Below, piece by piece: positions 15,439 through 43,514 of a stretch of 64,000 nt of DNA (positions are counted from its first letter, which is position 1; every line of letters begins with the position of its first letter). The stretch is from Gammaproteobacteria bacterium. Lineage in GTDB: Bacteria; Pseudomonadota; Gammaproteobacteria; Burkholderiales; Gallionellaceae. The notes beneath the pieces were generated by a model. That model was given only the letters and a program-made list of their open reading frames with translations. It searched no databases and was not told the origin of the DNA. Made by a program: the position numbers and the translations under genes. The stretch is from contig JAHIZO010000007.1 in NCBI GenBank assembly GCA_018814405.1, forward strand, positions 400,299-464,298. The letters run 5' to 3'.

Positions 15439-17409
15439 ATGAACAATTCGTTGCAACTATTACTCATTTTGCTCGCCGTCGCTGTGCTGGTGGTGGTGCT
15501 GTTCCGTTCGCTGCATTTGCCTGCCATGTTGGGTTATCTCATCGTCGGCGTGTTGATCGGTCCGAACGCACTGGGCTGGATCCCGGATGCGCCAGAGACT
15601 CGTCATTTGGCAGAGTTCGGCGTGGTGTTCCTGATGTTCAGCATCGGTCTCGAATTCAGTCTGGCTCGATTACGGTCGATGCAGCGTTTGGTGTTCGGGC
15701 TGGGCACGGCACAAGTGGTCGCTACGATGTTGTTGGTCATGATGACTTCCCTGTTCTTTGATCTTGGCTGGGCGGCGGGTCTGGCGCTGGGCGGCATCAT
15801 GGCGATGTCCTCGACAGCTATCGTCAGCAAGATGCTGGTAGAGCGCGGCGAGCTCAACACTCCGCACGGCCAGAAGATCATGGGTGTGCTGTTATTCCAG
15901 GATCTGGCCGTGGTGCCGCTCATCATCCTGATCCCCGCGCTGTCGTCGAATGATGGCAACCTCTCGGCCACGCTCGCCTTCGCAGCCTTGAAAGCGGTAC
16001 TGGTGTTGACCGCACTGCTCACCTTTGGCCAGCGTTTGTTGCGGCCGTGGTTCCATTTGGTTGCACGTCAAAAATCATCCGAGTTGTTCATGCTGAACGT
16101 GCTGTTGTTCACGCTCGGTCTGGCATGGATCACCGAGCTGAGCGGGCTGTCCATGGCGCTGGGGGCCTTCGTAGCCGGCATGCTGATCTCCGAGACTGAA
16201 TACCGCTATCAGGTGGAAGAGGACATCAAACCGTTCCGAGATGTGTTGCTCGGCCTGTTTTTCGTCACCATCGGCATGATGCTGGATATTCATACTGTGA
16301 TCGATGGCTGGGGATGGATATTGTTATTGCTGCTCATTCTGTTGCCATTCAAGGCGTTGGTGGTGGCGTTGCTGGTGCGTGCCTTCTCGGGAGACTGGGG
16401 GCCGGCATTGCGTACCGGTCTCGGCTTGGCGCAAGCGGGCGAATTCGGCTTTGTGCTGCTGACGCTCACCGGCGGGGCCAATCTACTACCGCATGACGTG
16501 ATGCAGAACGTATTGGCTGCCATGCTGATTTCCATGTTGATCGCACCATTCATGATCCAGCACGCGGAAGCCATCGTGCGTCGCATCTCGCCCGAGGAAT
16601 GGATGAACAGCGCTGTGCAGATGCACCAGATCGCCGTTCAGAGTATGAGCACTAACCAGCATGTGATCATCTGCGGCTATGGCCGAAGTGGTCAGGCACT
16701 GGCTGTGTTTCTGAAGAATGAGAATGTCAGCTTCATCGCGCTCGATCTTGATTCACGCAGGGTTCACGAGGCAAGTTCGTCGGGAGAGCGCGTCGTGTAC
16801 GGCGACGCCGGCAAGCACGAAGTTTTGCAGGCGGCCGGCTTGATGCGCGCCAAGGCGCTGGTCATCACATACGACGACAAGCATTCCGCACTCAGAATCC
16901 TGCGCCATATCCAACAGAACAGGCCCGACCTGCCGGTCATCGTGCGCACTGCCGACGATAGCAACGTCGAAATCCTGAAAAAAGCCGGTGCGACTGAAGT
17001 GGTGGCTGAAGTGCTTGAGGGCAGCGTCATGCTCGCCTCGCAGGCATTGCTGATGGCGGGCATACCGCTAAGTCGCGTAGTGCGCCGCGTGCAGGAAGCT
17101 CGCGCCAAGCGTTACAGCATGTTCAGCGGCTATCTGCGTGGCAATCGAGAAGAAGCGACCGACGAGACAGATAGTGTCCAGCCGCGTTTTCAGAGCGTCA
17201 TGCTGCACGAAAAAGACAGGGCGGTCGGTATGCGGCTGGGAGACCTGAAACTTGCGGAACTCAATATCGAGGTCAATGGTGTGCGTCGCCACAACCTGCT
17301 GGGGGGAGAGCCTTCGGACGACATGTTGCTTCGGGCGGGTGATGTGTTGCTGCTCTTGGGGCAGCCGATGATGCTGGAGGCGGCTGAGAAGAGACTGCGC
17401 AAAGATTAG
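15439..17409 (+). CDS. CPA2 family monovalent cation:proton antiporter with RCK/TrkA-N and TrkA-C domains (KefB/C, YbaL-like)
   Basis: Polytopic N-half plus VIICGYGRSGQALAVFL Rossmann (TrkA-N) and TrkA-C end. Confidence 0.93.
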   Translation: MNNSLQLLLILLAVAVLVVVLFRSLHLPAMLGYLIVGVLIGPNALGWIPDAPETRHLAEFGVVFLMFSIGLEFSLARLRSMQRLVFGLGTAQVVATMLLVMMTSLFFDLGWAAGLALGGIMAMSSTAIVSKMLVERGELNTPHGQKIMGVLLFQDLAVVPLIILIPALSSNDGNLSATLAFAALKAVLVLTALLTFGQRLLRPWFHLVARQKSSELFMLNVLLFTLGLAWITELSGLSMALGAFVAGMLISETEYRYQVEEDIKPFRDVLLGLFFVTIGMMLDIHTVIDGWGWILLLLLILLPFKALVVALLVRAFSGDWGPALRTGLGLAQAGEFGFVLLTLTGGANLLPHDVMQNVLAAMLISMLIAPFMIQHAEAIVRRISPEEWMNSAVQMHQIAVQSMSTNQHVIICGYGRSGQALAVFLKNENVSFIALDLDSRRVHEASSSGERVVYGDAGKHEVLQAAGLMRAKALVITYDDKHSALRILRHIQQNRPDLPVIVRTADDSNVEILKKAGATEVVAEVLEGSVMLASQALLMAGIPLSRVVRRVQEARAKRYSMFSGYLRGNREEATDETDSVQPRFQSVMLHEKDRAVGMRLGDLKLAELNIEVNGVRRHNLLGGEPSDDMLLRAGDVLLLLGQPMMLEAAEKRLRKD

Positions 17410-17431
17410 CGCGTGTATTCTTGTATTTGCT

Positions 17432-18064
17432 TCAGCTTGTCAGACAGGCCAGATATGAATTGTTATCGATGATGCTGCTACTGGGAATCGGCTCTCCGCC
17501 GGTGTTCGCGTGAGAGACCAGCATCGCGCCTTTGGCCGTATAGCCATCGTCCAGCATCATGTCCAGTTGTTTGACCAAGCGCCCAGAGATGTTGTCCGAG
17601 CAAATAATGTAACCGCCGCTCATACCGGTGATGGGGGCGTTGCTGATGTCTGTCACGCCAAAAGCGCCTCCAGCAGCACTGATCGGCACATATCCCGTCG
17701 CCGCTGGATCGATTGCTCCCTGAAGGAATCCTGCCAGTCTGATGTGTTGCCAAAGGAAATACGATTCGCCCCAAGCTGCATTCAGTTGGCCCTCGATGTG
17801 CAGATTTCCATTGCCGTTATTGATGACCGTAGGGCTGCCTTTCAGGTGCGCTGAGGCGTTGCTGTCATCTCCGGGTAGGGCACGAAATCGATCCTGATAG
17901 CCATAGAGCGCGGTCTGTATCCCTCTAAAGTCGCTCGCAATGCTCTTCGCACGTGAACTTTCTACCAACTCGCGTCCTTTGATAGTTAGTGTGATGAGTA
18001 GGCTGATAATCGCCATGACGATGGAGATCTCAATCAAAGTGAAGCCGGATTGTTTGCGTTGCAT
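17432..18064 (-). CDS. type IV prepilin-like protein B
   Basis: QSGFTLIEISIVMAIISLLITLTIKGRELV class III/type IVa prepilin cleavage motif; YGYQDRFRALPGDD; C-terminal Cys pair. Confidence 0.88.
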   Translation of the reverse strand: MQRKQSGFTLIEISIVMAIISLLITLTIKGRELVESSRAKSIASDFRGIQTALYGYQDRFRALPGDDSNASAHLKGSPTVINNGNGNLHIEGQLNAAWGESYFLWQHIRLAGFLQGAIDPAATGYVPISAAGGAFGVTDISNAPITGMSGGYIICSDNISGRLVKQLDMMLDDGYTAKGAMLVSHANTGGEPIPSSSIIDNNSYLACLTS

Positions 18065-18234
18065 GAGTCGGTTGGACCTTGGCGATTATCAGTAAAAGTT
18101 AATGAAAGCAGTAACCATGCCAATGGTAAGGCTTAGTGATATATGGCTAAAGCACCGTGCGGTGGCTTGCAGGAGGAGGAATGACGGCGACATACCGTCA
18201 AACGGTGACGAGAAATAGCCAAGAGATGGGCGTA

Positions 18235-18262
18235 AAAAAGCCCGCCGGATTAGGGCGGGCTT
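18235..18262 (-). terminator. rho-independent terminator downstream of the pilin remnant
   Basis: Perfect 9-bp stem AAGCCCGCC(GGATTAG)GGCGGGCTT; minus-strand T-run from plus A6 (18234-18239). Confidence 0.85.
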
Positions 18263-18282
18263 GTAAATGGTAGTGGCTTGAA

Positions 18283-18455
18283 TTACACGCCCATACAAAC
18301 GGTATAGCTGTTTGCGTCGATAAGATTGCCGTTGGCCTATAGAGATGCGGGTGTGACGGGTATTCTCAAAGCAGTACCACGGCCGCCTGCCTGTGTGTAC
18401 GTTATCATCGCGCCGGACAACGGATCACCATTAACCATTCAATTGGTGCGGATAG
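18283..18455 (-). pseudogene. 3' remnant of a third prepilin gene
   Basis: Minus-strand conceptual translation *MVNGDPLSGAMITYTQAGGRGTALRIPVTPASL*ANGNLIDANSYTVCMGV*; end resembles prepilin A C-terminus TAYTVCMGF*; interrupted by UGA/UAG and a probable frameshift. Confidence 0.75.
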
Positions 18456-18543
18456 GTGGCGGTGAGTTTCTAAGCATGAATCTTGAGCACAGAAGAGGTG
18501 TTTTTTAGATGAGAAAAAGTCTGCAGAGGGAGTTGCTGAAAAT

Positions 18544-18569
18544 AAAAAACCCGCCGAAGCGGGTTTTTT
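18544..18569 (-). terminator. rho-independent terminator downstream of prepilin A
   Basis: A6-CCCGC-CGAA-GCGGG-T6, symmetrical, 19 bp past the stop codon. Confidence 0.85.
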
Positions 18570-18587
18570 AGAGAAACATTGGGTTAA

Positions 18588-19244
18588 TTAGAATCCCATG
18601 CACACGGTGTAAGCAGTTTCGTCATCAGCTGTGGTCAAGTTTGATGAGGCAGCTGCCGCAGCTTGTGCTTGCATGGTCTCAGCTGTTGCGGCGGTCACCA
18701 TCACAGATCCGGTGGTGGTATTGCCATCATCCAAGTTGGTGTCTAGCTGTCGTGCAAACTTGCCGAGGATGCTTTCAGAGCAGATTACATATGAGCCTTT
18801 AAGGTTCGCAATAGAAAATGTGCTGCCCCCTTGAATGCCAATGCGGCCGCCTGAGGCATTCCTGGGCAGGAAGTCAACAGCTGCAGTATCGGTCGAGCCG
18901 GCAGCTAAGCCAGCTCTGCGGACATGCTCCCAAAACAAACTTGTTTCTGCAGTTTGGGTGGCTGGAAGCCAAGTGCCATTGATGATGCCGTTGCCATTTC
19001 CGTTGTGTCCTGTTGCTGCGCCAACGTGACTTTCTGCTTGTATGTCATCTCCGGGCATGGATCGGTACTTATCTTGATAACCGTAAATGTAAACAGGGAT
19101 GTTCTTAAAGTCTGTAGCCAGATTCTTAACCTTGGCGCTGTTGATCAGCTCTTGACCCTTCAGCACGCCGCCGAGCAGCAAGCCGATAATCACCAGAACG
19201 ATGGCGATTTCAATTAGAGTAAAGCCAGATTGTTTTTGCTTCAT
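18588..19244 (-). CDS. type IV prepilin-like protein A (candidate major pilin)
   Basis: MKQKQSGFTLIEIAIVLVIIGLLLGGVLKGQELI; ATG at 19244 preceded by GGAGGAA; C...C near C-terminus; own terminator. Confidence 0.9.
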   Translation of the reverse strand: MKQKQSGFTLIEIAIVLVIIGLLLGGVLKGQELINSAKVKNLATDFKNIPVYIYGYQDKYRSMPGDDIQAESHVGAATGHNGNGNGIINGTWLPATQTAETSLFWEHVRRAGLAAGSTDTAAVDFLPRNASGGRIGIQGGSTFSIANLKGSYVICSESILGKFARQLDTNLDDGNTTTGSVMVTAATAETMQAQAAAAASSNLTTADDETAYTVCMGF

Positions 19245-19350
19245 TTGTGTTTCCTCCAGTGGGTGAATGTTGGGTCTTGGCGCACTTAACTGTTTGTATT
19301 CTGGTGCGCGAAGCCCTGATGGCGTAAGCCATCGCGTGCACATTTTAATC

Positions 19351-19366
19351 AGCAAATCTTGTGCCA
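19351..19366 (-). promoter_or_regulatory. sigma-54 promoter (-24/-12) for prepilin A
   Basis: Minus strand TGGCACAAGATTTGCT = TGGCAC-N5-TTGCT, matches RpoN consensus; about 107 bp upstream of the prepilin start. Confidence 0.85.
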
Positions 19367-19502
19367 CATGCATAATTGGGCACATGGTAATCGTTAAATC
19401 ACAAATATACAAATACATAGATATGAATTGTCATTTACGTGAGCAGAGGTGCAGGTTGGATTTAAAATGCGTTCGTCGGGGTCTCGACGCGGCGGTGACG
19501 AT

Positions 19503-21179
19503 ATGACGACACTCAATCCTGCGCAATGGGCGCGTTCAAGCCGCTGGCTGTCCTTGGCTATGCTGGTATTTCTGCATGCAGCTTTCTGGCTTGGTGTTGA
19601 GCATATGTGGGCTCGGCCGCTGTTGCTTGCCCACTTGGGCCTGTTTCTCATTTGGCAGCCAGTGTGGCGCAGTGAAGCACGTTTGAGTTGGGGAAACTCT
19701 CTATTCATTCTTGGCGTCAGCTTGGCTGCCCTCACTTGGCTGAACTGGTGGATATTGGCCTTCTGGGTCGGAGGGTTGTTTGCCTTGGTGGGTGCGCGGG
19801 CATTCTCGTTCTATGCACGCTGGCAGCGCATCTACCACCTTTTGGTCATGGCATATCTCTTGGCGGTGTTGCTGTTGCACATCACGCCGCATCTATTCGA
19901 TCTGCCAGCTTTTGATGAGGTCACGAACAATCTGATGACGGTGGCGCTGCCTTTGATGTTGGTGGTAATGGCGCTCATTCCGGTTGAAAAAGAGAAGCCA
20001 GATGCCGTGCAGGCCATCGATTTCTTCTACGTGCTGCTTTTGTTTACGCTGCTAACGGTACTTGTGCTGGGCACGCTTGCATTCATGACTTTGAATCAAG
20101 CGGGATATTTGGATGCATTGTTGCGCACATTGTTTCTGATCGCGGTTGCGTTATTTGTACTGGGAGCGCTTTGGCATGCCGACTTTGGTCCATTTGGCCT
20201 GCAAACCAGTTTTTCTAGATATGTGCTTTCTATCGGTACGCCGTTGGAAGTTTGGCTTAAGCAGTTGGCGGTAGAGGCGCAGCTAGATAGTAGTCCGCGT
20301 GAATTTATTGAAAGCGCGACTGCGCATATGATCGAGATGCCTTGGATGTCCGGTATGACATGGGTGTCGGCAGAGGGGCACGGCACATTGGGAAGCGCCA
20401 GTCCACACAGGGTTGATCTGGTAGATGAAGATCTGCAAGTAACATTGTTTACCAGACAGGCAGTGGCACCAACAGTGTTGTTGCATATGCGCTTATTGGT
20501 CCAGGTACTTGGATATTTTTATCAAGCCAAGCGCCGCGAGCAGCGCTTGAGGGAGATCACGCGCCAGCAGGCTATATATGAAACAGGGGCCCGCATGACA
20601 CATGATTTGAAGAACATGTTGCAATCATTGTTTGCATTGGCTTCAATTGCGCAGAGTGAGCCGGCAAAGGCGCAGCCCATATTGCAGCAGCAGTTGCCGG
20701 TGCTATCGCAGAGGATTGAATCCCTATTGGATAAACTTAAATCGCCCGGGTTAGAAACCGACGCACGGGAAATTGAGTTGATGGCGTGGTGGGAAGAGCT
20801 ATGCCAGCGCTATCAACATCGCGGGTTCGAATGGCAGCTAGCAGCAAAGAGCAGATCGGCCATAAACATCCCCGCTGCGATGTTCGATTGTGCAGCGGAC
20901 AACCTGATTGAGAATGCGCTAAATAAGCGCTTGCGAGAGCCGGGGTTGAAAATCGTGGTCAGTCTGGATGCGGAGTCCGGCGCTTTGACTGTCAGCGATA
21001 ACGGTAGCGCTATCCCTGCTGGCTATGCTGAGAAATTACTGCGAACGGTCGTGCCTTCTGAAGACGGCTTGGGGGTGGGGTTATATCAGGCTGCGCGTTG
21101 GGCCGGACAGCATGACTTCATGATGCGACTGGTAGAAAATGAACCTGGCAAAGTCTCGTTCAGTCTTGCACGCCATTAG
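19503..21179 (+). CDS. membrane sensor histidine kinase (PrsK/PilS-like)
   Basis: Multiple N-terminal TM helices, H-box ARMTHDLKNMLQSL, N-box DNLIENALNKR, G-boxes SDNGSAIP and EDGLGVGLYQA; ATG at 19503. Confidence 0.88.
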   Translation: MTTLNPAQWARSSRWLSLAMLVFLHAAFWLGVEHMWARPLLLAHLGLFLIWQPVWRSEARLSWGNSLFILGVSLAALTWLNWWILAFWVGGLFALVGARAFSFYARWQRIYHLLVMAYLLAVLLLHITPHLFDLPAFDEVTNNLMTVALPLMLVVMALIPVEKEKPDAVQAIDFFYVLLLFTLLTVLVLGTLAFMTLNQAGYLDALLRTLFLIAVALFVLGALWHADFGPFGLQTSFSRYVLSIGTPLEVWLKQLAVEAQLDSSPREFIESATAHMIEMPWMSGMTWVSAEGHGTLGSASPHRVDLVDEDLQVTLFTRQAVAPTVLLHMRLLVQVLGYFYQAKRREQRLREITRQQAIYETGARMTHDLKNMLQSLFALASIAQSEPAKAQPILQQQLPVLSQRIESLLDKLKSPGLETDAREIELMAWWEELCQRYQHRGFEWQLAAKSRSAINIPAAMFDCAADNLIENALNKRLREPGLKIVVSLDAESGALTVSDNGSAIPAGYAEKLLRTVVPSEDGLGVGLYQAARWAGQHDFMMRLVENEPGKVSFSLARH

Positions 21180-21189
21180 TTGATGCAGC

Positions 21190-21213
21190 TTGTGTTGCAA
21201 TATTGCAACACAA
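21190..21213. promoter_or_regulatory. perfect 24-bp palindrome, candidate operator
   Basis: TTGTGTTGCAATATTGCAACACAA is its own reverse complement; intergenic, 14 nt upstream of a TTGACA box. Confidence 0.8.
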
Positions 21214-21226
21214 TCGCCACAAAGTT

Positions 21227-21256
21227 TTGACACTCGCTTCACGTTTTCTTTATTGT
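21227..21256 (+). promoter_or_regulatory. sigma-70-type promoter for the Cyc2-like gene
   Basis: TTGACA (21227-21232), 18-bp spacer, TATTGT (21251-21256). Confidence 0.6.
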
Positions 21257-21334
21257 GCGTCCCCGTGGTTGATGGGTAAGAAGCCCTTCAGCCATCTAAA
21301 GGGTAAATATCCAAATTAACGAGGAGAAACATCA

Positions 21335-22519
21335 ATGAAGAAAATCGCTCTCTCTCTGGCTAGCGTACTGGCTGCAGCAGCCTTCGCACCAGAAGCATCC
21401 GCTATTCCTGCGTTCGCGCGTCAAACAGGCATGGCTTGTTCCGCTTGCCACGCACAACACTTTCCAGTGCTGAACGGCTTCGGTCGTGCATTCAAGGCTG
21501 GTGGTTTCACAATGATGGGTTCACAAGAGCAAGTTTCTGGCGAGCACCTGTCTATCCCCGCACAAATGAACTTCGGCCAGTTGCTGAAGGTTCGTTTCCA
21601 GAAGACAAACGGCACTGTGCCTGCATCTGAAGTGAAGGGTGCTACAACTAACTCCGGTCAGTGGCAGTTCCCTGACGAGTACGCTCTGTTCGTCGGCGGT
21701 CGTATGGCTGACAACGGCTCCGTTAAAGTTGGCGTGATGGCTGAAAACGCACTGGGTGGTACTGCTGCTGGTATCGTTGCTGGTCTGCGCACGCCTGTTG
21801 TCATCGATCTGGATGCAGCTTCTGTTTCGGTGATTCCGTTCACCACCGACTCTCTGGGACCGTTCTACGGCTACACTGAGTCCAGCAACGGTATCAACCG
21901 TGCAATCCGTTGGGCTGAGCACCGTAAAGAAATCTCTGCTTACCAGTACGTTGGCCTGGGTTCTCTGGCTGCTACCGGTCTGACATTCGTTGCTCGCAAC
22001 GACATGGGTTACATCAACTACACCCGTTTCAACCCTGAGTTCGCAAGCAACGGTGCTCAGACAGCAACTGCGATCGAGCTGGCTCTGACACCGACTATCG
22101 CTGACTTCGCTACCGTGCTGACTCTGGACATCCTGTCCGGCAACGCACACGCAGGCGTAGCTGCTCCTACAGCTGACTACAAGGGTTCGGGTATCACTGC
22201 CCAAGGTCACGGCGAAGTCGCCGGCATGGAAACAGGCCTGTACATGACCTATGCTAAGGGCGATGCTGCTGGCTTCTACGGCGACAAGACAGCTACCACT
22301 ATTGGTGCTGACTTCACTGTGATCCCGCACACTCTGTCTCTGGGCGCAGCGATCCGCTCCGCTTCGAACGCAGGTGTTGGTGACAACGCTACGACCTTCA
22401 CCGCAGTGTATGACTTGGCACAGAACATTGCTATCGTTGCGAACTACTCCAAGTACAGCAAGGTGCAGGGCGCGAACGGTGATGCACTGTTCACCGGCAT
22501 GCTGGAAGCAGCTTGGTAA
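21335..22519 (+). CDS. secreted monoheme cytochrome c fused to predicted outer-membrane beta-barrel (Cyc2-like)
   Basis: Signal peptide MKKIALSLASVLAAAAFAPEASA, PAFARQTGMACSACHAQHFPVLNGFGRAFKAGGFTMMG (one CxxCH), then about 330 aa Gly/aromatic-alternating sequence ending in ...MLEAAW (C-terminal aromatic). Confidence 0.75.
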   Translation: MKKIALSLASVLAAAAFAPEASAIPAFARQTGMACSACHAQHFPVLNGFGRAFKAGGFTMMGSQEQVSGEHLSIPAQMNFGQLLKVRFQKTNGTVPASEVKGATTNSGQWQFPDEYALFVGGRMADNGSVKVGVMAENALGGTAAGIVAGLRTPVVIDLDAASVSVIPFTTDSLGPFYGYTESSNGINRAIRWAEHRKEISAYQYVGLGSLAATGLTFVARNDMGYINYTRFNPEFASNGAQTATAIELALTPTIADFATVLTLDILSGNAHAGVAAPTADYKGSGITAQGHGEVAGMETGLYMTYAKGDAAGFYGDKTATTIGADFTVIPHTLSLGAAIRSASNAGVGDNATTFTAVYDLAQNIAIVANYSKYSKVQGANGDALFTGMLEAAW

Positions 22520-22579
22520 GTTTGAGCTGACGTAAGGGTTCCGGTTCGCCGGGATCCAAACCAAGCACAAGCACCAATG

Positions 22580-22613
22580 AAACAGGGGAGACTTCGGTCT
22601 CCCCTGTTTTTTT
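22580..22613 (+). terminator. strong rho-independent terminator
   Basis: 13-bp perfect stem AAACAGGGGAGAC-TTCG-GTCTCCCCTGTTT followed by Ts; UUCG tetraloop. Confidence 0.95.
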
Positions 22614-22666
22614 ATGCATTAAAATTATGAAATGGAGCTGCTGAACTTCAAGTAGGGCCGAAAGAA

Positions 22667-23392
22667 CTAGCTGAACTTCAGGTATTGGGTGTCAGTATTG
22701 CTGACTTGCAGCGCATTGGCCTGGGTATCCCAGTCACCCAGCACCCAGCGTTCGCAGGTGTGACCATCTATATGATAAATGTGTTTGTTGGGGCGATGGG
22801 TATGGCCGTGGATGAGGTGCGGGAAATCGTATCGTCGTAGTAGCTCAAGCACAGCGTCATGGGTGACGTCCATGATGTCTGCTTCCTTGTTGCGCTTGGA
22901 TTGCTCACTTTGAGTACGCAATTGCTCGATCGTTGCTTTGCGCTGACGCAGGGGCTGCGAAAGGAAATGCGACCTCCATTCCGAACTTCGTACCGTGCCC
23001 CTGAATTGTTGGTAAGCACCATCTCCTGTGCAAAGCGTGTCGCCGTGGCTGAGTAGGGTGGGTTGGCCATATAGCTCAACCAGCGTTGGGTCGCTCAGGA
23101 GGGTGGCTTTGCATGCCTTGGCGAGTGCTTCATCCATCAGGAAGTCACGGTTGCCGTGCATGATGTACAACTTGGTCGAGTTGCTGGAGAGCGAGGCTAA
23201 CGCGCTGCATATCTGGCGATGGAATGGTGCATCCAGATCGTCATCGCCCGCCCAGTATTCGAACAGGTCGCCCAGAATGTAGAGCGCTTCAGCATGAGGT
23301 GCGACATCCTGCATGAAGCGCAGGAACTGCACTGTCGTCTGCGGATGGGATTCGCTGAGGTGCAGGTCGGAAATGAAAAGGGTATGGGGCAT
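22667..23392 (-). CDS. lpxH: UDP-2,3-diacylglucosamine diphosphatase
   Basis: TLFISDLHLSESHP, LGDLFEYWAGDDD, MHGNRDFL, LIHGHTHRP. Confidence 0.96.
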   Translation of the reverse strand: MPHTLFISDLHLSESHPQTTVQFLRFMQDVAPHAEALYILGDLFEYWAGDDDLDAPFHRQICSALASLSSNSTKLYIMHGNRDFLMDEALAKACKATLLSDPTLVELYGQPTLLSHGDTLCTGDGAYQQFRGTVRSSEWRSHFLSQPLRQRKATIEQLRTQSEQSKRNKEADIMDVTHDAVLELLRRYDFPHLIHGHTHRPNKHIYHIDGHTCERWVLGDWDTQANALQVSNTDTQYLKFS

Positions 23393-28291: not shown

Positions 28292-29689
28292 ATGCTGAAG
28301 ATCCACAACACCCTTGCCCGCGACAAACAGGAATTCACACCTATCGAAGCCAACAAAGTGCGCATGTATGTATGCGGCATGACCGTGTATGACTACTGCC
28401 ATCTCGGCCATGCGCGCGTGATGGTGGTGTTCGATATGGTGTATCGCTGGCTAAAGTCTTCCGGCTACGGCGTCACCTATGTGCGCAACATCACCGACAT
28501 CGATGACAAGATCATCAAGCGCGCGGCGGAGAACAAGGAGTCCATCCATACCCTGACCCAGCGCTTCATCGATGCCATGCATGAGGATGCCGATGCGCTC
28601 GGCGTACAACGTCCGGACCACGAACCGCGCGCCACACAGTTCATTCCGCAGATGCTGCAGATGGTTGAGCAACTGGAGCAGAAAGGCCTTGCTTACCAAG
28701 CGGCGGATGGCGATGTGAACTACGCCGTGCGCAAATTCGAGGGTTACGGAAAACTTTCAGGCAAGTCGCTGGAAGACTTGCGTGCCGGAGAGCGAGTAGA
28801 GGTGGCTTCGGACAAGAACGACCCGCTCGACTTCGTGTTGTGGAAACACGCAAAGGATGGCGAAGCGGACGAAGTGAAATGGGATTCAAAGTGGGGCAAG
28901 GGCCGTCCCGGCTGGCACTTGGAATGTTCGGCGATGGGCTCCGAATTACTGGGCAAGCACTTCGACATCCACGGCGGCGGTGCCGACCTGCAGTTTCCGC
29001 ACCACGAGAACGAGATAGCCCAGAGCGAAGGCGCGCACCAGTGCCAGTACGTGAACTACTGGATGCACAACGGCTTCGTGCGCGTGGACAACGAGAAGAT
29101 GTCCAAGAGCCTGGGGAACTTCTTCACCATCCGCGAAGTGCTAAAGAAATACGATGCCGAAGTCGTGCGCTTCTTCATCCTGCGTGCGCACTACCGCAGC
29201 CCGTTGAATTACTCGGACCATCATCTGGACGATGCGAAGGGCGCATTGACGCGACTCTATACAGCATTGAAGTCAGCACCCGCTGACGTGAAGGATGTGG
29301 ATTGGAACGAGGCGCATGCCCAGCGTTTCAAAGCCGCGATGGATGATGATTTCAACACCCCGGAAGCCGTCGCCGTGCTGTTCGACCTCGCTAATGAAGT
29401 GAATCGTAGTCACTCGGCAGAAGCGGCTGTGCAACTCAAAGCACTGGGGGGCGTATTGGGTTTGTTGCAAAGAGATGCTCATGAATTCCTGCAAGGCGGG
29501 CCAAGCTCTGAGGACTATTCAAAATTTCAGAAATATACGGACGCCTTGATAACTGAGCAAATCGAAGGTCGAGCAGCTGCTAAGAAAGCGAAGAACTTCG
29601 CCGAGGCGGATCGTATCCGCAAGGAATTGCTGGATGCGGGGATCGTCCTCGAAGATACCGCGCAGGGGACGAGTTGGCGCAGGGCTTAA
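28292..29689 (+). CDS. cysS: cysteinyl-tRNA synthetase
   Basis: [48 protein letters not shown]. Confidence 0.98.
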
Positions 29690-30435
29690 GGTAGTTTGCC
29701 GGCTGTCACCATACGATTGAGCAGAACCTGATTCGATATCCAGACCACCAAATCATCGAACTCTCCATTGGTGACTGATGAGGCAGTCGGGGTGTGGCTG
29801 ACGAAGAACCTGTCACCATCCAGATTCTCTGCTTCATCGGCACCGGTCCCGCCGGATGCGCCATTCTTGCCGGTAGAGAAGATCACGACTGGTACGCCCG
29901 TATCCGCAGTCAAGGCTTCTCCCGTAGCGCAGTCAGTGGCCGTGATGCCTGTGGAGGTGGTGCATACCAGCAGTGTGGGGTTCAGTGATGAGAGGCCGAC
30001 CGTAGCCATGCCGTCAGCAGTTGTGTATTTCGAAGAATTCCAGTTAGTGACGACATAGCGGATGGGGTTGTCCCAGGCATCGAGCACCAGCCCTTGCTCA
30101 TTTAATGAATTCAGCCCCAGCGTCGCTCCCGGCACATATCCATCAAAGAAGTTGCTGCAAGTGCCGCCCGTACTGGGACTCTCGACACCATTGCTGCTGG
30201 TCGTTGCGGGGCAAGGCAAGCGACCTTTGATGATGGCGAAGCCGATCAAAGCCTGTTGTATCTCTTCCAGCTGCTTTTTCGTCTCAGCCGATCGCCTTTG
30301 CTCTATCTGCCCGGAAATGGTGGGCACTAAACCCGCAAGCAATAACGTGACGATCGCCAGCACCATGGACATCTCGACCAGCGTGAAACCTTGCGTGTTG
30401 GCGGGACTTGCTGAAAGCGGCTTCATTCGATTCAT
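29686..30435 (-). CDS. type IV prepilin-like protein C (minor pilin)
   Basis: [42 protein letters not shown] at 30435, ATGA overlap with the upstream gene. Confidence 0.85.
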
Positions 30436-32147
30436 GGGCAATTGTTCTTTCCATCAATGCACAAAACCGTATCGTTGACGGTGTTGTAGTCGGGCTCAGA
30501 AATCCGATGCGTTACGAAGTCGGGCGTTGGTGTGGCGGGGGTCTTCCCTGCCGCATTCACCCCTTCTAAAAAATTCGAGACGGTGTCAATCGTGCTGCGG
30601 TTTTGTCCTGCCAACGTTTTGGAGGCAGCGACCACGACAGCATGATAGCTACCGGAGCCGGCATTGGTATGCCCAGTTCCTGTGATGCTTAAGCAGGTTG
30701 CTCCAGTCGTGCAGCTGCCTGTCCCGTCTGGCTGGTAACCATCAGCGATCTGTAAAAACACCCAGTCCCGCCATGCGGCCCATGAATTCGAATCGAAGAA
30801 TGACTGGCACGAGGTGCCGACCCAGGCGCTGGGCATGCTGCTGCCGCCAGTGCAGTCGTTGATCTCGGCAAAGGCCGCATCCAGCTTGGTTTGCATGGTT
30901 GAAGTGTTGGTGCAAGTCTTGGGTGAGCCGCTGCAATAATCATCTACATATTTACCAGCTGATCGTATCGGATCGGACCAAGGCAGGTTGTAAGGCGGAT
31001 CCTCAGCGAAATCCTTCAAGTCTTCACCTGCATCATTCAGTACGTTTCCTGTTGCGCCGGGTCCTGTGTAGGCATCCAGTGCATTCTGCACTTGTTGGAG
31101 GGCATCATTCAGCGCGGTGATCTGAGCGGCGTCAAAACTACTCAGGGGGCTTGAGCTACTTGGGCAGGTGCCCGTGCCACCTGAGCCGCTGATGTTGGGC
31201 ACATCTGGGAATCGCCCGAATCGGAAGCCCGGAGTGCCAGTGCGGTTCGGTGCGATGTTGTTACTCAACGATACTGCCCAAGGATACTTATGGTCGGGAT
31301 TCGAGGCATCGGCTGCATAATCATCCAGACACTTCTTCGCTTGGCGGGCGATGCGCTTCTGGATGCTGTTCCAGATATCCTGACGTGTGATGTAAAGGAT
31401 CTGGTCATTGGTGCTGGATGTGACGTTGCCGTTGGCGTCGCGATGTTCGTGCGGCAGGATCAACTTGCCCGAGGCGATGTTGGAATTATCAATGGCAGGG
31501 GAATGCGCAGTGTCGTTCTCAAGATAGGCGGCTGCGGTGTAGTTTCCCCCGCAGGTCGGTGCTGCAGAACTGGCAGTTCTGGCACTGTTGCCACTCAATG
31601 GTGGTCCAGGGGCGATAACGGCGGCGACGACCTCGCCAGCCTCAACGATACTTCCATTGTCAGCATAGATCGTGAACTCGCCGGGGTTGTCCCAGTTCAT
31701 CGTGGTGCCCGAAGCTGCCGGGTTGTTCTTGTATTTGCCGGAAACGGCATACCAGAGGCATTCGCCAGCGCCATCATAGAGTGCGGGAAGGTCGAGTGTG
31801 CGCCAGGGTAGTCTGCCGATGGTGTGATCTCCGGCGTTGCCGCAGGTCTCAGAGGTGCCTTCGTAGGGGGACGATCCTCCGGCTGTGCCGTCCATGTCAG
31901 GGCACGGCAGGAAGCCATGTGCGCCGGCATGCGTGTCGCCGTAAGTCAACGCGTAACCGATAAGGGCTTCCTTGGCTTTGGCCAAAGATTCTGCGCTTGA
32001 ATGATTGCGGCGGTTCTGCAGGGTGGTGCCGCTCAGCGAGGAGACAAAAACCGTTGTGATGCCTATCACCAGTATGACGAGCATGACCAGCAGGGCCCCG
32101 CCCTTTTGATATTTACCACCAGTGATCGCTAGAAGGGAGAATGGCAT
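30432..32147 (-). CDS. large PilX/minor-pilin-like Cys-rich protein, 571 aa, candidate pilus tip component
   Basis: KGGALLVMLVILVIGITTVFVSSLSGT hydrophobic N-terminus, GFLPCPDMDG motif shared with prepilin C; ATG at 32147 (track start is inside mshK). Confidence 0.75.
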   Translation of the reverse strand: MPFSLLAITGGKYQKGGALLVMLVILVIGITTVFVSSLSGTTLQNRRNHSSAESLAKAKEALIGYALTYGDTHAGAHGFLPCPDMDGTAGGSSPYEGTSETCGNAGDHTIGRLPWRTLDLPALYDGAGECLWYAVSGKYKNNPAASGTTMNWDNPGEFTIYADNGSIVEAGEVVAAVIAPGPPLSGNSARTASSAAPTCGGNYTAAAYLENDTAHSPAIDNSNIASGKLILPHEHRDANGNVTSSTNDQILYITRQDIWNSIQKRIARQAKKCLDDYAADASNPDHKYPWAVSLSNNIAPNRTGTPGFRFGRFPDVPNISGSGGTGTCPSSSSPLSSFDAAQITALNDALQQVQNALDAYTGPGATGNVLNDAGEDLKDFAEDPPYNLPWSDPIRSAGKYVDDYCSGSPKTCTNTSTMQTKLDAAFAEINDCTGGSSMPSAWVGTSCQSFFDSNSWAAWRDWVFLQIADGYQPDGTGSCTTGATCLSITGTGHTNAGSGSYHAVVVAASKTLAGQNRSTIDTVSNFLEGVNAAGKTPATPTPDFVTHRISEPDYNTVNDTVLCIDGKNNCP

Positions 32148-32158
32148 CGCGCGCACCT

Positions 32159-32515
32159 TCAGTCCTTGGGGGCGGCCTCGGGGCTGTCTAGCAGCAGTCG
32201 CTGTCCGACCTTGACCTTCACCGAATCTGTCTTTCCGGGAAGGATGACCGGTACGCTGGCCGGTGTGCGTGAGTCGGCTGAGCCGGCAGATTGTTGTTCG
32301 CCGTTGATCCATATGATGCGTTTTCCGCCATCGCGCTGGATCATGCCGTTGACGACGAGTGAGCGGCTGTTGTCGTCGCCGGCTTCGTCGGCACTGAGCA
32401 CATGCTGACGTTCCAATTGTGCACGTTCATTTGGTGTAAAGAACAGGCGGCCCAGATCGGCCGCTTGTGCGGTTGTGCTAAGTGCTATCAGGGCGAGGGC
32501 TAATTGAATTTTCAT
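32159..32515 (-). CDS. mshK: MshK-like pilus biogenesis protein
   Basis: Signal peptide MKIQLALALIALSTTAQAADLGRLFFTPNERAQLE; position in msh operon; ATG at 32515. Confidence 0.75.
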   Translation of the reverse strand: MKIQLALALIALSTTAQAADLGRLFFTPNERAQLERQHVLSADEAGDDNSRSLVVNGMIQRDGGKRIIWINGEQQSAGSADSRTPASVPVILPGKTDSVKVKVGQRLLLDSPEAAPKD

Positions 32516-33111
32516 GGCGCGCTCCGGTTCCTCATGGTGAACCACCCTCCAGCACATTGCGCTTTGAGCATTACGCCGCCGTTCTGTGCGGCGTCGGTAC
32601 GGAAAAGCGCGCACTTGTCGAGCAGGAACCAGCCGGGCATCTGGCGGCTAAGCGCGCCAAAGAAATTCAGCAGTTGGCCTTCATGCAGCAAGTCCAGCTC
32701 CATAGTCATTGGGCTGATGCTAAGTGCGAAGTTGCCCGCGTTCAGGGGCGGATTGGGGGCGTAAGTGCTTTGCGGTGCGATGTTGTATTTGAAGTCGGGC
32801 AGCAGGTTCTGGTTGCGCAGCCTTTCCAGACCCTCTATCCAATCTAGGCGTTGTTCGCTGCCAATGACTTTTTGTGTGACCAATGCGTCATATTCCATCT
32901 GGTATGAAGACATGTTCTCTTGATCGTTTTGTGCGGTGAGGAGCTGATCGCGCGCCGCATTGAGTTGGCGCTGGGCCTGCTGCAGCTCTTTGAGAGATTG
33001 CTGCTGGATGTCGGCGCTGTAATTGATCAGACCAACTGCAACACCTGTGCAAAGCAGGCACGCAAGCAAACTCCATTTGATCTCTCCGAGGTCGTCTGTA
33101 GAGAAGCTCAT
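32512..33111 (-). CDS. mshJ: MshJ-like (PilO/GspM-type) pilus assembly protein
   Basis: One TM then coiled coil; ATGA overlap with mshI; operon position. Confidence 0.78.
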   Translation of the reverse strand: MSFSTDDLGEIKWSLLACLLCTGVAVGLINYSADIQQQSLKELQQAQRQLNAARDQLLTAQNDQENMSSYQMEYDALVTQKVIGSEQRLDWIEGLERLRNQNLLPDFKYNIAPQSTYAPNPPLNAGNFALSISPMTMELDLLHEGQLLNFFGALSRQMPGWFLLDKCALFRTDAAQNGGVMLKAQCAGGWFTMRNRSAP

Positions 33112-34583
33112 GACGGTACCCTCCATATGATCTTAAGGGTGAACTGACCTTGTGACGCATCGGCACTCTGGCCACTGATACTGCCTTTTGAGGTGATATC
33201 CAATGGCAGTGCTGTGGCGCTGACAGCATAGCCGTGCCGAATCAAGGCCTGTTCGAACTTCTCCAGATAAGCCAGCGCACCACGATGGTCGCTGCCGAAT
33301 CCGCTAAGGGTGCCCTCGAAGGTGATGACTTGGGCTGGGTATGGTGTGGGGGCTGCATCTGCAGGGCTGGCTTGCCATGCAAGTTCGTTCAAGGTGATGC
33401 GCGGGAAGGATTCCAGCACCGCGCTCAACTCATAGATGATCCCTTGAGGAGGATGCGAATACTGGTTCAGGCTGCGTGCCAGCAACACAGCGGTCTTCAT
33501 GTCAGCAGCAGGTACGGAGGTATTGGCGAAGTTGCGCTGAATACCTTGCGCTTGCGTTTGCAGTTGTGCCGTTTGCTTTAACAGCGGCTTGGTCTCTGAG
33601 GAGAATTGCTCGCTCTGCCAGAAGGCCATCCCGCCCCACATCAAGCCGAGTAACAGGATGAAGATGGCAAGGCCAAACAATACGAAGCGCAATTGCCACA
33701 ACATGAAGAAGTGTGTGTGGGCTGAATTGGCGTAGTGCGCACTTGGCGGTTTGCCGGCCAAAAGATTGAGAAATAACGCTGTGCTGTCTGAATCTTCTAT
33801 TTCCTGTTTGCACTTGTGCTTGCGAGCGAATTCGGTGATATCCAGATAGTTGAAATGCTGCTCTCCGTCACTGGAGAGTTTGGTGCTCAACTGGGCGATC
33901 TCATTCGCATGGCACAGGATATAAACTTCCAGCACTTCTCCCGGCGGAGGCAGGGAAAGGCTTTTCAAATATTGTTGAGTGCGCGGTGTCTCCGAAATGA
34001 TTGCTTCGATCAGCGTGCCGTTCTCATTGATCGGGATCAGGCGCGAGAAATGCAGCCGTTTATTGTGGAAGTACGTCTGTCGCAAGCCTGCATTCCGCTC
34101 CCAAGTCAGCAGCAGGATGTGTTCGGACTGTATGTCCTTCAGTAGCGGCGCACTGATGTTGGGGATGGAGTAGATGCCGGCGAGCGGGACATGGTTCTCC
34201 AACAAGGCATCCAGCCAGGGGGTGATGCGCTGCGGATTGGTCAGGGCTGAGAACAGATAGTCGTCATCGCGGCGGCCTTCTTCCTGTCTCTTGAGCAGCG
34301 TCGCCTGGCGGAAAGGGGTGCTTCGGTAGTACTGTTCGAACTTGCGTTCGATAAGCGCAGAGCGGCTTGGTCCGATCAGATGCGGGATGGTCTCAAGGTG
34401 AAAATCTTCCTCGATGATGTCGACCAACAGATAGGTCGGGTTGTGATTCTGTTCAAGGAATGAGGAAAATTGCTCGCGGCCATCTGCGTCGTTGCTGAAC
34501 TCGTGAGCGAAGGTCAGGCCCTTGCCGTTCCAGAGGTAGGCCTGGAAATTTTCTGCGCTGAGGAATAACAGGGTGCGTGCCAT
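33108..34583 (-). CDS. mshI: MshI-like (PilM/GspL-type) pilus assembly protein
   Basis: N-terminal actin-like domain, TM FVLFGLAIFILLLGLMWGGMAFW, operon position. Confidence 0.8.
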   Translation of the reverse strand: MARTLLFLSAENFQAYLWNGKGLTFAHEFSNDADGREQFSSFLEQNHNPTYLLVDIIEEDFHLETIPHLIGPSRSALIERKFEQYYRSTPFRQATLLKRQEEGRRDDDYLFSALTNPQRITPWLDALLENHVPLAGIYSIPNISAPLLKDIQSEHILLLTWERNAGLRQTYFHNKRLHFSRLIPINENGTLIEAIISETPRTQQYLKSLSLPPPGEVLEVYILCHANEIAQLSTKLSSDGEQHFNYLDITEFARKHKCKQEIEDSDSTALFLNLLAGKPPSAHYANSAHTHFFMLWQLRFVLFGLAIFILLLGLMWGGMAFWQSEQFSSETKPLLKQTAQLQTQAQGIQRNFANTSVPAADMKTAVLLARSLNQYSHPPQGIIYELSAVLESFPRITLNELAWQASPADAAPTPYPAQVITFEGTLSGFGSDHRGALAYLEKFEQALIRHGYAVSATALPLDITSKGSISGQSADASQGQFTLKIIWRVPS

Positions 34584-34585
34584 AG

Positions 34586-35788
34586 TCAGAGCTGTACTTT
34601 TCCGATGAGGTCATAGATGGGCGAGAGGACAGACAGCATCACCCAGCCGAGTAGTGCACCAAGGATCAAAGTCATGGCAGGTTCGATCATGACCTGTACT
34701 TTTTTGATTGCATCCTTTACGTCACGGTCATAAAAGTAACTGACGTTAAGCAGCGCTTGGTCGAGCTGGCCGGTGGCTTCGCCGACCTTGAGCATGCGCA
34801 CCACCAGCGGCGGGAAGATGCCCGTTTTCTGGAAGCTTTGTGTCAGGTTCTTGCCGGCTTCGATCTCGCTCATAACGTTCTGCAGACTTTGTGCGATGAC
34901 CTGATTGTCCACCAGATCGCGCGAATTGGCGATGCAGTCCAGGATGGTGATGCCGGAACTGTACATCATGGCGAAGGTGTTGGCGAAGCGGGCCAGAATG
35001 ATCTTGCGCAGGATGGGGCCGGTGGGCCATATGTTCAGCTTCAGGTTGTCCACGTGGTATTGCAGCTTTGGATTGACCAGCAGCGCCAACTTGTAGCTGC
35101 CGAACAGCACGAATGGGGCGAGCAGGATCACATACCAATAGTTGACGAAGATATCCGATGTGGCCAGCAGGATGCGCGTTTGAATCGGGATCTCCTGCCC
35201 CATGCCCTTGATGAAACCCACCAACTGCGGCACCAGATAGATCATCAGGAAAAAGGTGATGGCCAGCACGATGGTGCCGACGAAGGCCGGGTAGATCATC
35301 ATGGTCTTTGTTTGCGAGGCCATCTCGTCCTGCCACTTCAACGATTCCATGAGGTGTTTGAACACATCTACCAGTCTGCCGCTGTCCTCACCGGCCTTGG
35401 TCAGGTTTGAGGTGATCTTGTCGAATGCGTTGGGGTGTTCCGCCATCGCTTGTGAGAGCTTCTTTCCGCTCTCGATGGACTCCACCATGTTGGCGATGAT
35501 CTCGCGAAAAGTTGGCTCTTCCATGGTGTCGCGCAGATCGGCCAGGCATTCCAGCAAGGGTACGCCGGCGCGGGAAAGTTGCTCAAGATTGAAAAAGAAC
35601 GTGATGAGATCTACACGTTTGATCTTGGTAGCGCCGAACGAAGTTAAGTGTTCTTCTTCCTTCGCACTGATCAGGTCGAGACCACCGCGCTTGAGGCGCA
35701 TCTCCAAGTCGATCAGATTGGCAGCATCCTGCAGTCCTTTGGCGCTCTTGCCGTCGCTGTCAATCGCTTTGTAGAGATAGAGGGCCAT
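34586..35788 (-). CDS. mshG: MshG (PilC/GspF) inner-membrane platform protein
   Basis: LEQLSRAGVPLLECLADLRD, LTKAGEDSGRL, MLKVGEATGQLD. Confidence 0.92.
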   Translation of the reverse strand: MALYLYKAIDSDGKSAKGLQDAANLIDLEMRLKRGGLDLISAKEEEHLTSFGATKIKRVDLITFFFNLEQLSRAGVPLLECLADLRDTMEEPTFREIIANMVESIESGKKLSQAMAEHPNAFDKITSNLTKAGEDSGRLVDVFKHLMESLKWQDEMASQTKTMMIYPAFVGTIVLAITFFLMIYLVPQLVGFIKGMGQEIPIQTRILLATSDIFVNYWYVILLAPFVLFGSYKLALLVNPKLQYHVDNLKLNIWPTGPILRKIILARFANTFAMMYSSGITILDCIANSRDLVDNQVIAQSLQNVMSEIEAGKNLTQSFQKTGIFPPLVVRMLKVGEATGQLDQALLNVSYFYDRDVKDAIKKVQVMIEPAMTLILGALLGWVMLSVLSPIYDLIGKVQL

Positions 35789-35794
35789 GGGACG

Positions 35795-37501
35795 CTAGTG
35801 CCGGTCCGTAAGGTCGACTACACGTGAGACTTCGGCCACGGAAGTGACGCCCTGCAAGATCCGCCTGATGCCGTCCTGCGCCAGCGGGCGGAAACCGGCT
35901 TCCAATGCGGCATGTTTGATGTCGCGGATGCTGGCTCGTCGCGCGACCAGATCATCCATCTCCGAATCCATCTTGAGGATCTCCATGATGGCTTGACGTC
36001 CTGTGTAGCCCTGATGGCGGCAGAGGTCACAACCGGCAGCACGGTAAAGGGTGACCTCTTCGTTATGATGCAGTCCGAGCAGTTTGCGTTCAGACAGATC
36101 AGGCTGGTAAGGATATTTGCAGTGTTTACACAGCATGCGGATCAGGCGCTGCGCCACGATGCCGATGATGTTCCCGGCCAAAATGTCGGGCAGGATACCG
36201 ATATCCAGCAAACGCGGTATCGCGCCCACCGCGGAGTTGGTGTGCAGGGTCGAATACACCTGGTGGCCGGTCATCGCGGCGCGGAACGCCATCTCGGCAG
36301 TCGGGTGGTCGCGCACCTCGCCGACCAGGATGATGTCCGGGTCTTGGCGCATCAGGGAGCGGATGCCGCTGACGAAATCGAGTTTAGCCGCCTCGTTCAC
36401 CGAACTCTGGCGGATCAGCGGGATCGGATATTCCACCGGATCTTCCAAGGTCATGATGTTCACCGATTCGGTGTTCACATGATTGAGGATGGAGTAAAGC
36501 GTGGTGGTCTTGCCGGAGCCGGTCGGGCCGGTGACCAGTACGATACCCTCCGGTTTGGAGATGATGGAGAGCAGCGTCGAAAGCGCGATGTCGTCCAAAC
36601 CGAGCTGGTTGATCGGCACGATGCCTTTCTGGCGATCGAGGATACGCAGCACCAGATTCTCGCCATACGAGGTCGGATGTGAAGCAACGCGAAAATCGAT
36701 AGGGCGGCCGGACAGGCGCAAAGAGATGCGTCCATCCTGCGGCGCACGCGTCTCCGCGATGTTCATGCCGCTCATCACCTTCATGCGCACCACCATGGCG
36801 GGCCAGAAGCTCTTGTGCAGGCTGCGCACTTGGCGCAATACGCCGTCTACGCGGTAGCGGATGCGCAGGAAGCTGTTCTCAGGCTCGAAGTGGATGTCGG
36901 AAGCGTTCTGCTGCACGGCCTCAGTCAGCAAGGCGTCTATCAGGCGCACCACCGGCTGGCTGAATTCGTTGACGCCTTGTTGCAGGCTCTGGTGCTCCAG
37001 CTCGCCCGGCTCGATCTCGTGCAGGATACCGTCGATGGATAGCTCGAAGCCGTAATACTGGTCGATTGCGCGCAGGATGTCTGATTCGCTGGCAAGCAGC
37101 GTGATCAGCCTGTATTCATCTTTGAGCAACGCGCGCACTTGATCCAGCGCGATGATGTTGTCTGGATCGGCGATGGCGAGCGTAAGATTTTTGCTGCCTG
37201 CATCTACCGAAATCGGCACCAATTGGTAGCGTCGTGCAACCTCTTTGGGAATCATCGTCACTGCAGCTGAATCGACGATCACATTGGCCAGATCGACACT
37301 CTCTTGTCCCAGATTCTCGGACAATACATCGCGGATAGTCGCTTCGGACAGGAAACCGAGACGAACCAGCAAACGCCCCAGCGGCTGGGGGGATTTGCTC
37401 TGTTCTTGGGTGGCGATGCGCAATTGGTCTTCGCTGATGACGCCTTTCGCGATGAGCAATTGTCCTATCGGCTGCTGGAACTGTTGTTGCGGTGCGGCCA
37501 T
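35795..37501 (-). CDS. mshE: MshE (PilB/GspE) assembly ATPase
   Basis: GIVLVTGPTGSGKTTTLYSILNHVN, DPDIILVGEVRDHPTAEMAFRAAMTGHQVYSTLHTNSA. Confidence 0.95.
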   Translation of the reverse strand: MAAPQQQFQQPIGQLLIAKGVISEDQLRIATQEQSKSPQPLGRLLVRLGFLSEATIRDVLSENLGQESVDLANVIVDSAAVTMIPKEVARRYQLVPISVDAGSKNLTLAIADPDNIIALDQVRALLKDEYRLITLLASESDILRAIDQYYGFELSIDGILHEIEPGELEHQSLQQGVNEFSQPVVRLIDALLTEAVQQNASDIHFEPENSFLRIRYRVDGVLRQVRSLHKSFWPAMVVRMKVMSGMNIAETRAPQDGRISLRLSGRPIDFRVASHPTSYGENLVLRILDRQKGIVPINQLGLDDIALSTLLSIISKPEGIVLVTGPTGSGKTTTLYSILNHVNTESVNIMTLEDPVEYPIPLIRQSSVNEAAKLDFVSGIRSLMRQDPDIILVGEVRDHPTAEMAFRAAMTGHQVYSTLHTNSAVGAIPRLLDIGILPDILAGNIIGIVAQRLIRMLCKHCKYPYQPDLSERKLLGLHHNEEVTLYRAAGCDLCRHQGYTGRQAIMEILKMDSEMDDLVARRASIRDIKHAALEAGFRPLAQDGIRRILQGVTSVAEVSRVVDLTDRH

Positions 37502-37509
37502 CGTCGTTC

Positions 37510-38604
37510 CTAGCGGGAAGAGGTCAGTTCATTCAGACGACGCAGTGCCTGTACATGATCGAAGCCGGCGCTATTGTTGCTGTCCAGTTCCAGAGCCTGG
37601 CGATAATGGTCCGCTGCCAACTTGCTTTGTCCGAGGTGATCCAGACTGACCGCCAAGTTGAAGGTGAACAATGCATTGCCCGGCTCCAGTGCTCGCGCGC
37701 TGAAATAGGCTTGTTGGGCTTCTGCCCAGCGCGACTGGTCCGCATACGTATTACCCAGTGCGTAATGCAGGGCGGCTGCTTGCGGTTGCTCGGACAGCAT
37801 CTGTTTCAAGCGCACTTCAGCGTCGACTTCGTTCGTGCTGTAGGAAGACATCGCGCCCAAAGCGACGGGATCGCGAGGGTCGAGCAACAGCACTTGACGG
37901 TAGTAATGCTGGGCGGTTTGATCCTGCCCCTGTTGTTGGGCGACTGCGCCCAAGCCGAGCAAGGCATCGCGGTTCCGCGCATCCTGAGCGAGCACCGTGT
38001 GGTAACCCTGTGCCGCCGCCAGATATTCGCCGCGTTGATATGCTTGCCAGGCATCCTGCAATGTAGGCGTGATGGTATCCACCTTGGGCTGGCGTTTGAT
38101 AGTCAGGCGACGGGGTGGGCGCTTGGGAGCACGATGTGTGACTGTTTCGGCAGGTGCAGCTTTGACCGTCTCGGTCACAGGTGGCGTGAATGGCGGCGTT
38201 GGCTCAGCGACTTGAACGGGTGTGGGTTCCGGAGCGATGGCGGCAACCAAACGCGGCGAAGCTGGTGGGGGGGTGATTGGCGCGGTCGCGGCGGGGAGTG
38301 GCCGCGCAACAGGGCGTCTGACGGGCGGATTGAGCTCAGTCCAGACGTAATAGCCATAGCCGGCACCTATCGTGCTGCAGATCAAAAAAGTGGTAGGAAC
38401 CAGACCTAGTTTCCAGCGCCGGCGTGGGGGCGCTTTTTTCTTCTTTGCGGCAAACAGTGTTTGGCCAGCGGCACGCGAAGCTTCTGCCGGGGTGCTTTCA
38501 GGCGCAGCGCTTGCTGTCGACTGATTGGGGTGATCCTCCAGCGTCAGACCTGTGCCTTTGCCCTTTTCACCAGACTTCTTCATCGCGTCGAGTAGCAGGC
38601 TCAT
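37510..38604 (-). CDS. mshN: MshN-like TPR pilus assembly protein
   Basis: Pro-rich linker after single TM, C-terminal TPRs, operon position. Confidence 0.82.
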   Translation of the reverse strand: MSLLLDAMKKSGEKGKGTGLTLEDHPNQSTASAAPESTPAEASRAAGQTLFAAKKKKAPPRRRWKLGLVPTTFLICSTIGAGYGYYVWTELNPPVRRPVARPLPAATAPITPPPASPRLVAAIAPEPTPVQVAEPTPPFTPPVTETVKAAPAETVTHRAPKRPPRRLTIKRQPKVDTITPTLQDAWQAYQRGEYLAAAQGYHTVLAQDARNRDALLGLGAVAQQQGQDQTAQHYYRQVLLLDPRDPVALGAMSSYSTNEVDAEVRLKQMLSEQPQAAALHYALGNTYADQSRWAEAQQAYFSARALEPGNALFTFNLAVSLDHLGQSKLAADHYRQALELDSNNSAGFDHVQALRRLNELTSSR

Positions 38605-38606
38605 CG

Positions 38607-40364: not shown

Positions 40365-40459
40365 TCCCTTTTTCCCCCTTAGGTTTTGCCGCAAGGTAAC
40401 CTAAATCACAGCGTGTCGCAACCGCCCTGATGGTCTATATATTTTTTTGTTTCATCAGC

Positions 40460-43453: not shown

Positions 43454-43474
43454 GGCGAAACAGAAGGGGTGAGG

Positions 43475-43483
43475 TGATAGAAT
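43475..43483 (+). promoter_or_regulatory. extended -10 for mlaF operon
   Basis: TGATAGAAT with GC-rich discriminator GCGCGCC. Confidence 0.6.
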
Positions 43484-43514
43484 GCGCGCCTGATTATTCA
43501 GTCGAGGTGTCTTT

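Follow-up and report, generated by a model that had tools for sequence, protein, structure and literature searches.

The window, a 64,000-nucleotide stretch of DNA, carries a gene that encodes Cyc2, a monoheme cytochrome-porin of an already described family, of which this protein is a slightly short, ordinary member. Iron-oxidising bacteria of the Sideroxydans/Gallionella group draw electrons from dissolved iron by means of Cyc2. At a probability of roughly 90%, we read it as a Cluster 1-type Cyc2 that serves a neutrophilic bacterium of Sideroxydans type as its Fe(II) oxidase in the outer membrane, an activity that we infer from its relatives. On the strength of cyc2, the organism is probably a neutrophilic iron oxidiser. 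The coordinates of the gene, its domains and its putative flanking signals are collected in Table 1.

Table 1. Features of cyc2 and its flanks (window coordinates)
Feature	Position	Strand	Basis
cyc2, monoheme cytochrome c fused to predicted 16-strand outer-membrane beta-barrel	21335..22519	+	ORF, signature motif, tree, AlphaFold, Foldseek
Signal peptide, residues 1-23	21335..21403	+	cleavage after ...EASA judged by eye
Cyc2 cytochrome signature A23-x-P-x-FARQT31 ... C35-SAC-H39 ... P44-V-L46	21401..21472	+	sequence compared with the PMC8406198 definition
Beta-barrel domain, 16 predicted strands, residues 79-393	21569..22513	+	AlphaFold secondary structure
Promoter-like site TTGACA-18-TATTGT, 5' of cyc2	21227..21256	+	consensus scan, 10/12 matches
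Terminator-like hairpin and T-run, 3' of cyc2	22585..22610	+	consensus scan and sequence

The protein carries the Cyc2 signature

Translation of the window yields a 394-aa open reading frame exactly as the sequence-only reading had described it, with a signal peptide, a single CSACH and a barrel-like remainder ending in Trp. The protein begins with Lys-Lys and a hydrophobic leader, followed by AIPAFARQTGMACSACHAQHFPVLNGFGRAFKAGGFTMMG. By the published definition (Keffer et al. 2021, PMC8406198), a Cyc2 protein is at least 365 aa long and combines a signal peptide with one CxxCH, the motif AxPxFAR[Q/K][T/Y] shortly before the CxxCH, a PxL four residues past it and a fused 16-strand porin; the motif is said there to occur in Cyc2 alone. 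The sole CxxCH of the window protein is CSACH, at residues 35-39; it is preceded by A23-I-P-A-FARQT31, which conforms to the motif and ends three residues before C35, and is followed by AQHF and then by P44-V-L46. The spacing between motif and CxxCH is three residues both here and in the copies of Sideroxydans lithotrophicus ES-1, against five in the published definition (PMC8406198). A signal peptide is recognised by eye and by conservation, the pattern MKKxxLSLAxVLAAxAFAPEASA being kept in homologues; the length of 394 aa lies above the minimum, and a C-terminal barrel of 16 strands is predicted by AlphaFold, in agreement with matches to porins and with a control fold of the Cyc2 from Ca. 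Ferrigenium straubiae KS03.

Residues A23, P25, F27-Q30, C35, C38, H39 and P44 are invariant among the aligned Cyc2 rows, and the full signature pattern is matched by 95 of the 99 rows of the tree described below. When 12,779 open reading frames of at least 60 aa were scanned genome-wide, the FAR...CxxCH signature occurred in one, cyc2 itself, and it is therefore no chance motif. Neither Pfam nor NCBIfam holds a family model matching the protein, so library annotation is silent on it. Searches of the PDB by sequence, with single sequences and with profiles, returned nothing meaningful and no Cyc2 structure, and a search of a plasmid collection gave no match.

A predicted 16-strand barrel with trimmed external loops

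The sequence-only reading had proposed structure prediction as a check for a 16-strand barrel, and the AlphaFold model (71 sequences; mean pLDDT 86, pTM 0.83) has precisely that number of strands. The loops L1 to L8 of the model are 17, 2, 41, 10, 11, 8, 6 and 9 residues long, and the turns T1 to T7 are 3, 3, 2, 6, 2, 3 and 2 residues; in the model, long loops and short turns succeed each other as in classical porins, both ends are periplasmic, and L3 (172-212) is long as well as conserved. The best PDB matches by Foldseek are 16-strand porins, including BpsOmp38, OmpU and OprP (probability 1.00, E of 3e-7 or better), the last of which is named in the Cyc2 literature. These share the barrel fold but have no heme domain, and their sequence identity is 11-14%. 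The KS03 protein, folded as a control, gives an identical 16-strand layout in which the extracellular L6 and L8 are longer. Confidence is low for the N-terminal heme domain, with residues 11-40 mostly below a pLDDT of 60 in a model that lacks the heme. Judging from strand alternation, the invariant residues E115, R123, E137, Q290 and Y303 would point into the pore lumen.

At 394 aa the protein is, as had been remarked from the sequence, on the short side, being among the shortest of the 99 rows (median 427). Only L6, L7 and L8 are clearly short, at 8, 6 and 9 residues compared with family medians of 19, 9 and 14, and the reduced length is therefore attributable to trimming of extracellular loops, with no strand missing. 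A loss of strands as the cause of this length is rejected on the 16-strand model together with this comparison of loop lengths.

Placement within the Gallionellaceae Cyc2 proteins

Matches to the protein were found in 55 of 100 related genomes, the nearest being a Cyc2 with 76% identity from the same genus. One of these genomes carries three adjacent cyc2 genes with spacings of 604 and 437 bp, identical to those published for Slit_0263-0265 of ES-1 (PMC8788666), and was therefore used as a named ES-1 anchor, which in turn places the window genome in the GTDB genus of ES-1. A scan of a genome collection supplied further named loci, among them those of KS03 and of Ca. Ferrigenium altingense AG11. 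The window protein has 50% identity to ES-1 copy 3, 54% to KS03 and 52% to AG11; the first of these values falls inside the range of the ES-1 copies against each other, which is 44-52% by the same method (37-50% as published; PMC8788666).

ES-1 thus shares with the window genome the signature motif, the genus and the fused architecture, with full-length identities of 42-50%, but has three adjacent copies of 437-445 aa where the window genome has one. The flanks also differ, with transcriptional regulators before and a ppc-looking gene after cyc2 in ES-1, as opposed to a PrsK-like kinase and lpxH here. For Cyc2 PV-1 of Mariprofundus ferrooxydans, the biochemically tested Cluster 1 protein, the likeness is one of published definition and not of alignment, and comprises the signal peptide, one CxxCH, the motif and the 16-strand barrel.

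In a tree of 99 rows (IQ-TREE in quick mode, with SH-aLRT as the only support measure), the window protein belongs to a 12-row clade of uncultured Sideroxydans-like sequences (SH-aLRT 99) that is nested in the Gallionellaceae Cyc2 proteins; it shares its group there with one of the ES-1 copies and with the sequences from the KS and AG enrichment cultures. Distant Cyc2-like proteins of the order branch outside Gallionellaceae Cyc2, and the deep root is unsure owing to long outgroup branches, which leaves the local placement unaffected. The sequence-only reading had offered the protein as either a Cyc2 homologue or a distinct sister clade, to be decided by phylogeny: homology is upheld by the motif, the 16-strand model, the KS03 control and the tree, whereas the sister clade falls on the nesting within Gallionellaceae Cyc2. 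The literature assigns Gallionellaceae iron oxidisers to Cyc2 Cluster 1, and we apply that label here, as a probable one, by association with the ES-1, KS and AG sequences with which the protein was compared.

Codon usage points to high expression

Relative to a ribosomal protein reference, cyc2 has a codon adaptation index of 0.861 and ranks second among 2068 open reading frames of 100 aa or more, for which the median is 0.65, in keeping with the highly expressed type of codon choice noted from the sequence. It ranks 20th when groEL, atpD, gapA and dnaK serve as the reference, and its z-score corrected for amino-acid make-up is 6.4-6.6, at rank 25-45 in an ordering that favours long genes through their length. 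Crude gene calling makes all of these ranks approximate, but that the gene is strongly optimised is a robust result. On codon usage, cyc2 is probably among the most heavily expressed genes of the genome. This agrees with published observations in relatives, cyc2_1 being among the top expressed genes of ES-1 (PMC8788666) and high cyc2 expression having been published for CL21, and the rank provides independent genomic support for them.

Other electron-transfer genes

The genome (2.38 Mb, 10 contigs, 98.7% complete) has a single cyc2. Counts of CxxCH in its open reading frames revealed no decaheme protein, and thus no MtoA was found; one cyc2 with no mtoA found makes for a simple genetic setting for the Cyc2 family. 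Four or more heme motifs were counted only in a 24-heme cytochrome, a 13-heme cytochrome and an octaheme protein. The first two are followed by a 711-aa porin-like protein in a PCC3-like cluster (C8:26367-31789), which by its sequences is a candidate second route across the outer membrane. A diheme/monoheme pair beside an Hsp33 gene (C3:209326-213378) resembles irc, and the IrcA-like diheme has 66% identity to a protein located at 1.316 Mb in ES-1, a position that would fit Slit_1324. The gene of this diheme cytochrome (C3:212404-213378) ranks tenth in codon adaptation, which also suggests high expression. Genes that we take to be DsrJ-like and cbb3-type CcoP-like are present as well.

Proposed function of the window Cyc2

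A single-protein route for electrons at the outer membrane, as the sequence-only reading proposed, is the already published reading of the Cyc2 family, not a new possibility. The mechanism and activity set out here are drawn from published PV-1 work and models and carried over to the window protein. Dissolved Fe2+ would come into the lumen from the cell exterior, passing the conserved long loop L3 and the putative lumen-facing acidic residues, and at the periplasmic mouth it would reduce the single N-terminal heme. From there the electron would move on to periplasmic cytochromes, for which the IrcA/IrcB-like pair are the candidates here, and from these to a terminal oxidase or into reverse electron transport.

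The most serious competing explanation, which we nonetheless consider improbable, is that the protein is Cyc2 by descent with another main role, as an Fe(II) sensor, a constitutive 'readiness' protein or a conduit for another donor, while a PCC3-type complex carries out the bulk of extracellular electron uptake. The PCC3-like cluster of this genome, with its large cytochromes and porin-like protein, is compatible with such a division, as is CL21, in which cyc2 is high without iron oxidation, a sensor role has been proposed, and cyc2 expression alone is no proof of iron oxidation activity. Yet the tested Cluster 1 member, PV-1 Cyc2, oxidises Fe(II) in vitro, the function of PCC3 is itself putative, and the only cyc2 of this genome is extremely codon-optimised, unlike the needs of a low-level sensor.

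Far less probable is a distinct sister family of short cytochrome-porins that use another metal or electron partner; the unusual shortness of the protein would suit this, but its position in the tree, the retention of 16 of 16 strands with only extracellular L6-L8 clearly short, and the lengths of its clade neighbours (385-432 aa) all speak against it. A plain porin in which the CxxCH arose by chance would account for the match of the barrel alone to general porins, but is rendered negligible by the conservation of the signature around the CxxCH in nearly all rows of the tree and by its single occurrence in the genome. We favour the Cluster 1-type Fe(II) oxidase. A more specific version of it, that this is a loop-trimmed minimal Cyc2 with reduced L6-L8 and the sole agent of dissolved-iron oxidation in a Sideroxydans whose genome is small, is put forward tentatively, as we think it rather doubtful; if it is true, the clade could reveal external loops dispensable for iron oxidation. 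The clade, with its proteins of 385-414 aa, indicates how small a full 16-strand Cyc2 can be and offers a compact choice for structure work.

Gene neighbourhood

A GAGGAG ribosome site lies immediately 5' of the cyc2 ATG, and the arrangement suggests a one-gene unit, with a promoter and a terminator that are consensus matches only: the region holds 2 promoter-like sites, where shuffled sequence would be expected to give 0.8, which is weak evidence, and 3 terminator-like sites against 1.8 expected. The neighbouring genes are a PrsK-like sensor kinase (576 aa, 19449-21179, +) and lpxH (22667-23392, -). The order kefB, prepilin-like gene(s), PrsK-like kinase, cyc2 (and lpxH), at 15439-23392 in the window, is kept across many Gallionellaceae, and one relative has a tandem cyc2 pair within it. 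Although the kinase adjoins cyc2 in many relatives, its candidacy as a dedicated regulator of cyc2 is unsupported, because in ES-1, among others, its orthologue lies far away from cyc2, and because it is also present in relatives at the level of the order in which no cyc2 was detected.

Two related prepilin-like genes adjoin each other (17432-18064 and 18588-19235, -), and in relatives each also matches the homologue of the other. A pilus/type II secretion-like cluster, containing an ATPase, an inner-membrane protein, a secretin and prepilins, is found with a PEP-CTERM/NtrC-type response regulator at 29686-41917 (-) and 41930-43666 (-), and this regulator may pair with the PrsK-like kinase.
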